Below, one piece after another: positions 3,922 to 28,972 of a stretch of DNA of 64,000 bases. Position 1 is the first letter of the stretch. Every line of letters begins with the position of its first letter. The stretch spans positions 62,001 to 126,000 of the forward strand of contig CANSLJ010000005.1 in the NCBI GenBank assembly GCA_947647735.1. Direction: 5' to 3'. The DNA is from an uncultured bacterium. Its GTDB lineage: Bacteria; Bacillota; Clostridia; Lachnospirales; Lachnospiraceae. Position numbers and translations under genes: made by a program. The notes under the pieces were generated by a model. The model did no database searches and was not told the origin of the DNA. It saw only the letters and a list, made by a program, of their open reading frames with translations.

Positions 3922-4767
3922 ATGGAACTTGGTCTGGTATTGGAGGGCGGGGCTATGCGCGGGATGTATACCGCTGGCGTCCTCGATGTATTTTTAGATC
4001 ATAAGATAAAGGTGGATCGCATTGTCGGCGTATCTGCTGGCGCATTATTCGGAATCAACTACCTGTCAGGGCAAAAGGGGCGGGTAATCCGCTATAATAA
4101 ACAGTTTAACAGTGATAAAAATTATATGGGGCTGCTTCCTCTTTTGCGGGAGGGGAACATTGTCAGTACAAAATATGCCTATGAGGACGTTCCACGCCGG
4201 TTTGATCCCTTTGATGATGAGCAATATCAAAAGTCCGGTGTGCCTTTTTACGCCGTTGTCACGGAAGTAAAAAGCGGAAAGCCGGACTATGTTCAGATCA
4301 ACAGCGTTTTTGAGCAGATGGATACCCTGCGTGCTTCCGGATCTATGCCTTTTGTGTCAAGGGCTGTAAAGATTGGGGAAAAAGAATTTTTAGATGGCGG
4401 GATTTCCGACGGAGTCCCGTTTCAGTGGCTTTCCTCACAGGGTTGTGATAAAATGATCGTCGTCCTGACGCGCGACATGGAATACCGAAAGAAACCCATG
4501 TCTCCCGCACTGACAGGGCTGTACAGCAGAAAATACCCTCAGATCGCAAAACAGTTACGCGGCAGACATCTCCGGTATAACCGCACCATAGAAACGCTGA
4601 AACAGTGGGAAAAAGACGGCAGAGCTTTCGTTATACGCCCCTCAAAACCGATCAGGATCAAAAAGATCGAGAAAGATCCGGATAAACTGCAGGCGGTCTA
4701 TGACCTCGGTGTGCATGATGCCGAAAGTGCCATTCTATTATTGAAGGAATATATTAACAAATACTGA
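3922..4767 (+). CDS. patatin-like phospholipase family protein
   Basis: 281-aa patatin-family lipid acyl hydrolase of the YjjU type. The oxyanion segment LEGGAMRGMYTAGVLD, the nucleophile motif GVSAG (G-x-S-x-G) and the catalytic Asp in LDGGISDGVP (D-G-G) are all present, so the Ser-Asp dyad looks intact. Basic C-terminus and no signal peptide, so it is likely cytoplasmic. Start set at the ATG at 3922 (MELGLVLEGG); GGAGG at 3904-3908 sits a little far (13 bases). A GTG at 3898 would give an unlikely 8-residue extension. It converges on the membrane protein gene on the other strand, with repeat copy 1 between them. Confidence 0.85.
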   Translation: MELGLVLEGGAMRGMYTAGVLDVFLDHKIKVDRIVGVSAGALFGINYLSGQKGRVIRYNKQFNSDKNYMGLLPLLREGNIVSTKYAYEDVPRRFDPFDDEQYQKSGVPFYAVVTEVKSGKPDYVQINSVFEQMDTLRASGSMPFVSRAVKIGEKEFLDGGISDGVPFQWLSSQGCDKMIVVLTRDMEYRKKPMSPALTGLYSRKYPQIAKQLRGRHLRYNRTIETLKQWEKDGRAFVIRPSKPIRIKKIEKDPDKLQAVYDLGVHDAESAILLLKEYINKY

Positions 4768-4810
4768 TATTGAAAAAATTGCTTTGGATATGTATTATAG
4801 GCTCAGTCAG

Positions 4811-4947
4811 TGCAGCAGGGGGGGAATATATCCTGTGAAGGCTGTAGAAAAACGTCGGTACTTAGTGAGGTATTTCACGAACTTAGTACCGCTACGTTTT
4901 TCTCCAAGCGGAAGCGTGCCTGAGCAGGATATATTCCCCCTGTTGCA
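4811..4947. repeat. structured palindromic repeat, family 1, copy 1
   Basis: A 137-base element with nested symmetry. The outer arms 4811-4835 and 4925-4947 are inverted complements apart from one substitution and two extra Gs. Inside lies a hairpin: 4847-4855 (GAAAAACGT) pairs with 4894-4902 (ACGTTTTTC) and 4856-4862 (CGGTACT) with 4885-4891 (AGTACCG), with a further GTGA/TCAC pair (4865-4868, 4875-4878) near the tip. A second copy at 28674-28813 shares the core from TATCCT to AGGATA but has unrelated outer arms that are again self-complementary. It lies between the convergent patatin and CmpB-like genes. No coding potential is supported. Confidence 0.85.
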
Positions 4948-4958
4948 CGTCCGGACCA

Positions 4959-5405
4959 CTATACTCCCCGAAACCCGTTTTTCAACGTAAACTTCTCCAA
5001 AACCACCCCTGCCAGAAACCAGTTCGGAAAGAAGTCCAGGCGGACATGGGAACCGATGCGGAGCCGGCTTCTGCTGTAATCCCAGGGTTCCAGCCCCTTT
5101 TTATCAAGAAGCTTTCCGGAAGTGAACTCCCCGAGGAAAATGAGCAGAGCGTACAAAGTGCCGCGCAGAGGGAACCATACTTTATGGGTGATACGAAACA
5201 GCGGACGAAGAAAGGCGGCGCAGCCGTAGATCGGGAACATCCACAGGGAAGTGGTTCCTTTCAGCTGAAAGTCGCGCCTCTGAAGCGCTATGAGTGCGGT
5301 GTAAAGGATCTCGAAGCACCAGCCCGCAATGCCGCAGTGCAGAAACAGTTTAAAGAGCGGCATGGGGGCTTCTTTTTTTTGTGTTGTTGTAATTGTTTTT
5401 TTCAT
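4959..5405 (-). CDS. CmpB-like (putative ABC transporter permease type) membrane protein
   Basis: About 148-aa membrane protein resembling the ABC_trans_CmpB family (PF06541): LHCGIAGWCFEILY, then TTSLWMFPIYGCAAFL, then a helix around TLYALLIFLGEFTSGKLL and a final PWDYS ... FPNWFLAGVVLE segment. Members are small four-helix proteins of unknown substrate. The frame is open far upstream, but the extra N-terminal residues are low complexity and unlike the family. The ATG at 5405 (MKKTITTTQ) or the one at 5363 (MPLFKLF) is more likely; neither has a strong ribosome binding site, so the start is uncertain. Divergent from folC. Confidence 0.65.
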   Translation of the reverse strand: MKKTITTTQKKEAPMPLFKLFLHCGIAGWCFEILYTALIALQRRDFQLKGTTSLWMFPIYGCAAFLRPLFRITHKVWFPLRGTLYALLIFLGEFTSGKLLDKKGLEPWDYSRSRLRIGSHVRLDFFPNWFLAGVVLEKFTLKNGFRGV

Positions 5406-9430: not shown

Positions 9431-9556
9431 TAAACAATGTTTCTTTGGCGCACATTGTGAAGCGTATTTGTGTAAACAATGTTTCTTTGGCGTACATTGT
9501 GAAACGTATTTAAATAAACAATGTTTCTTTGGCGCACATTGTGAAGCGTTTTGTAT
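9431..9556 (-). ncRNA. type III antitoxin RNA, three 42-nt tandem repeats
   Basis: Three tandem units begin at 9431, 9473 and 9515 on the plus-strand coordinates, each with TAAACAATGTTTCTTTGGCG followed by (C/T)ACATTGTGAA(G/A)CGT. Period is exactly 42. The units differ at a few positions only, mostly at the unit junctions. Read on the minus strand they form the antitoxin precursor, transcribed from the promoter at 9562-9589. ACAATGT and ACATTGT segments within a unit allow short stems, as expected for pseudoknotted antitoxin RNAs. Confidence 0.88.
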
Positions 9557-26764: not shown

Positions 26765-26790
26765 GGTTTCGCTCCTTTCCTGTGGGTGAC

Positions 26791-26900
26791 TCGAAAGCCC
26801 GCGCTGACGCGCTCTATGTTTGACTTCGTCAAACGCTTTCTCGTGATTGTGCAAGAAAAACAAATGCCGCTTCGCGTCGCTTGTTTTTCTTTTGCACTAC
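26791..26900 (-). repeat. intercistronic structured repeat, family 2, copy B
   Basis: Starts directly after the stop of the ABC-F gene on the minus strand. It repeats the order seen at 14900-15020: GAAAAACAAGCG with CATTTGTTTTTC, then a stem GTTTGAC/GTCAAAC around GAA, then GCGC/GCGC around GTCA. Flanking words are shared (TAGAGCGCG, GCGCGGG), while the middle stem sequence is changed on both arms. It precedes the HAD gene on the same strand. Confidence 0.8.
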
Positions 26901-28620: not shown

Positions 28621-28673
28621 TAAAAATCGATGACTGTTATTTATTTTACATTACTGCATGTTTGGCTCAACCT

Positions 28674-28813
28674 GGGCATCCATGGCAATGTATCCTGTGA
28701 AAGACTGTAGAAAAACATCGGCACTTAGCGAGGTAGTTCACGAGCTTAGTGTCCGTTACGTTTTTCTTCAAGCGGAAGCGTGTCTTGAATAGGATACATT
28801 GCCATGGATGCCC
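28674..28813. repeat. structured palindromic repeat, family 1, copy 2
   Basis: Outer arms 28674-28696 and 28791-28813 are a perfect 23-bp inverted repeat. The core (TATCCTGTGAA ... TGTAGAAAAAC ... CACTTAGCGAGGTA ... TTCACGAGCTTAG ... TTACGTTTTTCT ... CAAGCGGAAGCGTG) matches copy 1 closely, but the outer ~17 bases of each arm are unrelated to copy 1. In the inner stem CGGCACT here replaces CGGTACT, and AGTG replaces AGTA on the other side, keeping the pair. It sits in the divergent region between the ABC-F gene and ppdK. Confidence 0.85.
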
Positions 28814-28972
28814 CGCCCGTCCAAAAGTGTTTCTCGTGAATGTAAAATTGGTAAAATTTTCTCGAGTTGGGGGAAAATATTACTTTTTTGTAAAAAAATA
28901 GACGCATTTTGGGCAGAATATGGTATACTGTTTGTACTGAAAAAGCAGTATGTAAAGAAAAGGAGAGAAAGT

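Follow-up and report, generated by a model that had tools for sequence, protein, structure and literature searches.

A dispersed family of structured hairpins in Lachnospiraceae with a conserved core and variable, self-complementary stems

Introduction

Several described systems resemble, each in part, the hairpins reported here. REP sequences are GTAG- or CGTC-tagged palindromic repeats of 20-40 bp with short stems and a family-specific sequence, and their CGTC kind is reported without a dedicated transposase (PMC3733652). Like REP sequences, the Lachnospiraceae hairpins are high-copy and intergenic, lie by gene ends, have a stem whose foot bears an unpaired tag and also occur as inverted pairs; their foot tags are [C/T]AG at one end and CGTC at the other, where REP sequences have GTAG or CGTC (PMC3733652). 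Unlike REP sequences, they have a core with a three-way junction and a free-sequence stem of 25 bp, and the hairpin as a whole is far longer. Only a minority of copies have GTAG as their left foot, the others having CCAG or GCAG, and of the cognate Y1_Tnp gene that marks REP/RAYT systems the genome studied here has a fragment only, its assembly being incomplete. The features of CGTC repeats are present, namely many intergenic copies near gene 3' ends, with CGTC at one end and 6 of 130 copies overlapping a predicted gene.

The likeness to MITEs lies in a subfamily of type B copies with IS4-type terminal repeats and target duplications of 9-10 bp, both of which are expected of an IS4 MITE; in contrast, the copies that we started from (type A), and nearly all others in their genome, lack such ends, and what they conserve is an internal, structured part. 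Integron attC sites also keep a structure while their sequence varies, and are recognised as a folded single strand (PMC2727003); the likeness is one of principle only, and neither cassettes nor attC core boxes came to notice. Template switching between the arms of a hairpin, a mechanism described in two studies (PMC8794818, PMC8604942), yields multi-base compensatory changes and perfect stems such as those seen here, although the published work concerns RNA genes (PMC8794818), whereas here the process would act on a dispersed repeat. Finally, the hairpins show the strong covariation of a structured RNA, yet G-U and A-C pairs are nearly equal in their arms. The family is best filed among the non-coding dispersed repeats of Lachnospiraceae, of the REP/MITE kind, distinguished by a structured, conserved core and a long stem in which pairing is conserved and sequence but little. 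It amounts to a natural set of 199 long hairpins with one core and many stems, in related species and with filled and empty sites, and with it two questions become testable: does selection or DNA template switching keep stems perfect, and can a bacterial repeat be mobilised via its folded shape and not the sequence of its ends? The hairpins, which have no Rfam family, are moreover abundant next to stop codons in a bacterial family that is itself common.

Results

The window is a stretch of 64,000 nucleotides from an uncultured Lachnospiraceae bacterium (assembly GCA_947647735.1, contig CANSLJ010000005.1, positions 62,001 to 126,000). Its genome is referred to as G000, the other genomes compared as G001 to G008, and collected loci by L-numbers. 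The two copies of a structured repeat that the initial annotation had described are confirmed in the sequence, the covariance model placing them, both on the plus strand, at 4807-4949 (copy 1) and 28671-28814 (copy 2); in the rest of the window the model gave no further copy, save a weak reverse-strand echo of copy 1. The folding z-scores of the plus strand are -11.7 for copy 1 and -9.2 for copy 2, and none of 200 shuffles folds equally well. The predicted fold comprises an outer stem, P1, of about 25 bp, a core stem, P2, with a conserved tip, a small hairpin, P3, and a three-way junction; the conserved core is made up of the junction, the tip GAGGTN4-6CGA and the GNRA-type hairpin.

In copy 1, with all features on the plus strand, the 5' arm of P1 occupies 4810-4836 according to the fold and to the model match at 4807-4949, with free sequence at 4810-4826 and the shared TATATCCTG from 4827. 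P2 lies at 4845-4904, its conserved tip ACTTAGTGAGGTATTTCACGAACTTAGT at about 4860-4887, and P3 at 4908-4915, with a GNRA-type loop (GCGGAAGC) that across copies takes the forms GAGA, GAAA, GGAA, GGGA and GCGA. The 3' arm of P1, at 4925-4948, complements the 5' arm in the fold and is adjoined by a CGTCCG tag at 4948-4953; most copies also have a left-hand tag, [C/T]AG, near the 5' arm. The neighbours of copy 1 are convergent, a patatin-like gene ending at 4767 and a gene with an ABC_trans_CmpB match on the opposite strand having its stop codon at 4959. Copy 2 has its 5' arm from 28674 (GGGCATCCATGGCAATGTATCC) and its 3' arm to about 28813, and beyond them, also on the plus strand, a further outer inverted repeat in which ATTTTACATT at 28643-28652 is complementary to, and pairs with, AATGTAAAAT at 28839-28848. 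The partner AATGTAAAAT continues into a right flank, AAATTGG, that is also present in the empty relatives G003 and G001. Such outer inverted repeats occur beyond P1 in a minority of copies, mostly with a sequence of each copy's own, and exceed the 95th percentile of the null in 31 of 142 copies (22%). Copy 2 lies between divergent genes, that of an ABC transporter ATPase, reading away from 28541, and that of pyruvate phosphate dikinase; on the strength of its PF00005 and PF12848 matches, we read the former as a putative ABC-F type.

The core recurs far beyond these two copies. The 105-bp core has 40 matches in G000, and by DNA similarity it is found in 12 of 61 genomes, G000 included. A covariance model was built from 39 of the 40 matches, L027, in which the small hairpin is replaced, being omitted. 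With 150 candidates scored per genome, so that the counts, and the largest above all, are lower bounds, the model found at least 146 copies in the relative G003, at least 90 in G000, 26 in G001, 12 in G004, 7 in G005, 4 in G008 and 3 each in G006 and G007, and none among the candidates scored in G002. Across the flanks compared, G003 is 100% identical to the [Clostridium] symbiosum MAG record JAETSN01. After one duplicate had been dropped and reverse-strand palindrome echoes and weak partial matches left out, 199 distinct copies were collected (66 from G000, 82 from G003 and 51 from others). The tip pattern was found in at least 119 stretches of the GTDB collection and, judged by eye, the titles among the matches listed were mostly those of Lachnospiraceae or its genera. 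When 42 of these tip loci and one viral contig were run through the model, 15 fitted the architecture with scores of at least 73 bits.

The element is real. No Rfam family was found at it, either at the gathering score or at a relaxed E-value (the best sub-threshold match reached 21.1 bits against a gathering score of 50). The core had no match in the phage and plasmid collections; among viral contigs one of 9.5 kb came up, in which the covariance model found nothing. No description of the family was found in the open-licence full-text literature.

The arms of P1 pair within each copy, and this part of the initial annotation holds for the family at large. By eye, a long outer stem is present in the predicted folds of all 40 core matches of G000, in a few of them with mismatches, and the stem sequence differs. 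In the 39-copy alignment 93.0% of the cells pair, compared with 76.6% in shuffled alignments; 342 cells carry two-sided changes, compared with 108 in shuffled ones (none of 500 shuffles being as high), and such changes occur at all 21 P1 pairs. The structure as a whole beats 500 of 500 shuffles and every slid version of itself, and since kinship among the copies makes shuffles too easy to beat, the slid control weighs more. When the outer 25 nt of each arm are compared with the copy's own partner and with the partners of other copies, which is fairer than a local alignment that trims the arm ends, 194 of 199 copies exceed the 95th percentile of the cross-copy values and 150 of 199 the 99th. 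In contrast, the claim that arms are unrelated between copies does not hold throughout, because the arms group into families of related arms, clearest in G003; both window copies belong to distant families. The copies neither share identical arms in large numbers nor have arms that fail to pair, findings that would have spoken against the initial description. The GNRA hairpin, the P2 tip and the junction are kept across copies while the sequence of P1 varies widely.

The pairing is of a particular kind. By local alignment with trimmed ends, the P1 arms of the 199 copies contain 4809 Watson-Crick pairs, 73 G-U, 50 A-C, 75 other mismatches and 36 gaps, and are perfect in 95 copies. G-U makes up about 1.5% of the arm pairs, and the 73 to 50 ratio to A-C only just favours it (binomial 0.047). 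With G-U nearly equal to A-C, pairing in the arms is essentially Watson-Crick, and neither strand is clearly favoured as the RNA. The purine fraction of the 5' arm is 0.61-0.67, and thus the two strands differ in composition.

The family moves, or has moved, because at the same locus a copy can be present in one species and absent from another. In the three cleanest empty sites (L029 against L041, L028 against L116 and L138 against L115) the whole hairpin and both arms are missing; the difference from the filled site also takes in flanking sequence, about 14-20 nt on the right-hand side of P1 and 20-44 nt on its left, without a long target duplication (at most 3 bp, in L029). Empty orthologous sites vary, some having little or no extra sequence and others from tens to more than 100 unalignable bases. 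Copies that face an empty orthologous site may be young. Partial losses are seen as well: in the G008 orthologue of L088 the P2 core has been lost between two GGAG repeats with both arms kept, and at the L297 locus G000 has a stretch resembling the 3' foot of L297, possibly a remnant.

For one subfamily, the means of movement can be named. Some type B copies carry terminal inverted repeats, CAATGTCATTNAGTTA, and an element of G006, which reaches the end of its contig, is bounded by a one-mismatch form of them, CAATGTCATTTAGATA, and encodes a 437-aa IS4-family transposase (PF01609, NF033592). Target duplications of 9, 9 and 10 bp were found in three of the five complete copies with these ends that were inspected, the direct repeats being ATACCGCTCC, AGGCTGAAT and GGGCTGAAC. 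The copy of G008 is flanked by the 10-bp repeat ATACCGCTCC and is absent from G005, G006 and G007, and at its locus G000 holds another element (L134); two complete copies of G003 have 9-bp direct repeats; L112 and L113, also complete, have no clean duplication, and L112 sits within a longer palindrome. The terminal repeats shared with an IS4-family element, together with the target duplications, thus make this subfamily, consisting of some type B copies, a MITE carried by the terminal repeats of an IS4-family element. The hairpin element measures about 140 bp; copies with terminal repeats reach about 190-240 bp.

Type A copies have neither terminal repeats of the CAATGTCATTNAGTTA type nor a consistent target duplication, nor a strongly conserved flank past the foot tags, and no duplication offset common to all copies was found. 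G000 has 2 matches to the terminal repeat at one mismatch or fewer, against at least 90 model copies. G006 has the IS4 transposase and G004 one of 46% identity to it; at E 1e-20 it was not found in G000, G003 and G001, in assemblies that can lack IS copies. A Y1 tyrosine transposase was considered as the mover and rejected because its presence does not follow copy number: in these incomplete assemblies G000 has a fragment only, G003 has one, and G001, G002 and G005 have none. Inspection by eye of four intervals between paired elements revealed no recognisable transposase. Five pairs of elements lie less than 450 bp apart (L016, L019, L051, L114 and L118), all of them divergent (minus, plus). 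In G003, the copies L105 near 11483, L106 near 13432 and L111 near 6805 have a common left flank, GCATGGGCGTTTAGTTA, in place of the usual terminal repeat, and L106 and L111 share 163 bp at 97% identity.

Discussion

We consider it probable that these hairpins form a REP/MITE-like family of mobile non-coding elements that are propagated and kept for their folded shape, with the stem free in sequence, one subfamily being an IS4 MITE. This reading builds on the copy number, the presence or absence of copies at shared loci, the covariation, the terminal repeats and target duplications of the subfamily, the conservation of recognisable shared copies and the proximity to stop codons; what we infer is that the folded form is recognised, what the hairpin does and how its arms stay matched. 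The conserved part, that is, the P2 tip, the three-way junction, the GNRA-type hairpin and the unpaired foot tags, would be what a protein recognises, and the outer stem would be required only as a stem, so that its sequence could drift while its two sides stay complementary in the Watson-Crick sense. Some type B copies would travel as a MITE by means of IS4-family terminal repeats. After insertion the hairpin may be kept for its shape, acting at gene 3' ends, or mismatches may be repaired by arm-to-arm copying at the DNA level. A stronger version, in which an enzyme would read nothing but the foot tags and the core in its folded form, and the free stem would be rewritten in a matched way during propagation, seems to us quite unlikely; if it were true, such inheritance of shape would give near-identical cores bearing different yet self-complementary stems.

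The alternative that fares best, and which we hold tentatively as a serious contender, is that the hairpin is a cis-acting 3' UTR RNA element, present in the mRNA of the adjoining gene and affecting its stability or processing, with the stem selected locus by locus and mobility secondary. Its main support is the genomic context, for which a simple codon-score gene caller was used and 130 of 148 copies from G000 and G003 had usable flanks. Of these, 70 are antisense to both neighbours, 24 are sense with both, 19 lie between divergent and 11 between convergent genes, and 6 overlap a predicted gene. Where a gene of the opposite strand ends on the right (81 copies), 76 copies are no more than 50 nt from its stop codon, with a median of 20 nt; where a gene of the same strand ends on the left (35 copies), 16 are this close, with a median of 54. 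Among tandem contexts the excess of antisense over sense copies has a binomial probability of 2e-6 if copies are independent. Placement beside stop codons would fit a role in mRNA 3' ends. However, both orientations are seen, window copy 2 among divergent genes, and copy orientation also tracks the majority gene direction and GC skew, there being too few cases to separate gene direction from replication direction. The scarcity of G-U pairs in the arms, little commoner than A-C, is a further point against this reading, and a point for it is that in the core stems 9 of 31 changes between orthologues are one-sided wobbles. In several of the remaining tip loci the tip hairpin stands in a different setting, at times directly after a stop codon (by eye), which also speaks for the RNA. 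The settings with other architectures include L174, L177, L190, L200 and L206, several of which, by eye, seem to come after a stop codon; some loci have tandem tip hairpins, such as those of L177 and L200 with a distance of 44 nt, and L233 (Hungatella hathewayi) has a pair of tip hairpins at 581-671 that is flanked by tRNA genes on either side and precedes a 16S rRNA gene of the same strand.

The conservation of shared copies while their upstream flanks decay speaks for both the 3' UTR reading and ours. In orthologous elements identity averages 0.85; in the 60 nt upstream it is 0.60, against 0.58 after shuffling, and in the 60 nt downstream, where a gene often ends, it is 0.75, against 0.59; these means are for 9 of 11 comparisons, at 7 loci, in the more distant species, with two very close pairs kept apart. 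Decayed orthologues are unrecognisable and only recognisable pairs were compared, so that conservation in place may be overstated. Two-sided changes far outnumber one-sided ones, and shared elements are kept as the upstream flanks decay; selection for a long stem is thus the best supported of the three ideas in the initial annotation, although arm-to-arm template switching could supply part of the effect.

That one arm is copied onto the other during replication, so that mutations appear in both without selection, is an explanation that we regard as rather unlikely. In nine orthologous comparisons 23 arm changes are two-sided and 5 one-sided, with no wobble among these 5, whereas the 31 changes in the core stems, whose pairs were taken from the predicted fold, which favours pairs, comprise 16 two-sided changes that keep the pair, 1 that breaks it and 14 one-sided ones, including the 9 wobbles; the arms and core stems differ in one-sided wobbles (Fisher 0.002), which speaks for template switching. 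Against this, no inversion of the core was found in 20 comparisons of orthologues at 11 loci, though inversion of the spacer is a reported by-product, the arm changes are hardly clustered (4.23 runs, with 4.64 expected), and the outer inverted repeat exceeds chance in only the 31 of 142 copies given above. Two copies, L089 (1501-1652) and L075 (541-683), have arms and flanks that look, by eye, like tandem duplications, as though a repeated unit had extended the hairpin outwards.

Among paralogues, core and arm distances are strongly uncoupled, as seen also in an analysis of 143 copies of which 22 were without anchors. At a core distance of 0-3%, 25% of the arm pairs already differ, with 258 two-sided and 39 one-sided changes (53 comparisons, not independent), and at 9-12% the figure is 46%. 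The simple reading is that in spreading copy lineages the core is retained and the stem is free to drift in sequence. Homogenisation of the cores by gene conversion, with each arm keeping its own history, would look the same, and we therefore retain it as a rival, albeit an unlikely one; under it, similar cores with different arms would say nothing of fast arm change. Its support comes from orthologous loci, at which, unlike among paralogues, arm and core change are similar: 34 of 246 mapped arm pairs differ (29 two-sided, 5 one-sided, 212 the same), the core differs at 96 of 886 sites, and in the flanks, which are mostly coding, 12.8% of sites differ. Of the 12 pairs compared, L129/L323 was left out of these sums and L143/L287 could not be mapped, and 40 base pairs stayed unmapped; also left out were the same-locus copies L134/L045, L063/L052, L143/L287, and L044 against L133 and L311, which have unrelated arms or belong to another subtype and may be separate insertions. 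Conversion would also account for variant tips that replace the normal one at the same locus: in L097 (547-707), L325 (1599-1760) and L063 (1483-1641) a longer AT-rich hairpin tip takes the place of the GAGGT...CGA tip, and at the L097 and L325 loci the orthologous copies have the normal tip. However, at orthologous loci the likeness of the cores is no lower than that of the arms, and some copies, facing empty sites in other species, may be recent. In L027 (1483-1646) another hairpin replaces the small GNRA hairpin, and its loop could, by eye, form a pseudoknot with the bases that follow.

The two other ideas of the initial annotation concern the insertion itself and have lost most of their ground at the empty sites. 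Copying of flanking DNA into an inverted arm, which should leave one arm in each empty site, is very improbable: in 22 filled/empty comparisons a copy's own arms ranked among the top 10 of the arms of 198 other copies in 3 of 44 tests, about as expected by chance, and the three cleanest empty sites hold no arm. At the L012 locus, G003 does have a stretch, CCCTGTTTGGGGCATCCG, which resembles L012 in its 3' arm and tag and might be what is left of a single arm, but its score is matched by the arms of 10 of 198 other copies, and the full copy that G001 has at this locus means that the stretch can equally be a remnant of a whole element; the extension of the copy 2 partner AATGTAAAAT into sequence shared with empty relatives is the other point in favour of copying. 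Insertion of the core into the loops of existing palindromes, whose stems it would inherit, is largely refuted and highly improbable, since the outer inverted repeats and the palindrome around L112 that might suggest it are outweighed by clean empty sites without an arm-matching palindrome, by the same 22 comparisons without an excess of own arms, by arm families common to unrelated loci of G003 and by nearly constant arm length and foot tags.

Two further structured elements were noticed in the window. At 26788-26897 a second, unrelated structured repeat adjoins the stop codon of the putative ABC-F-type gene; G004 has several matches to it, and further ones occur in G001, G003 and G008. On the minus strand at 9434-9553 there is an Rfam match to Fusobacteriales-1 RNA (RF02920) of 96.5 bits.
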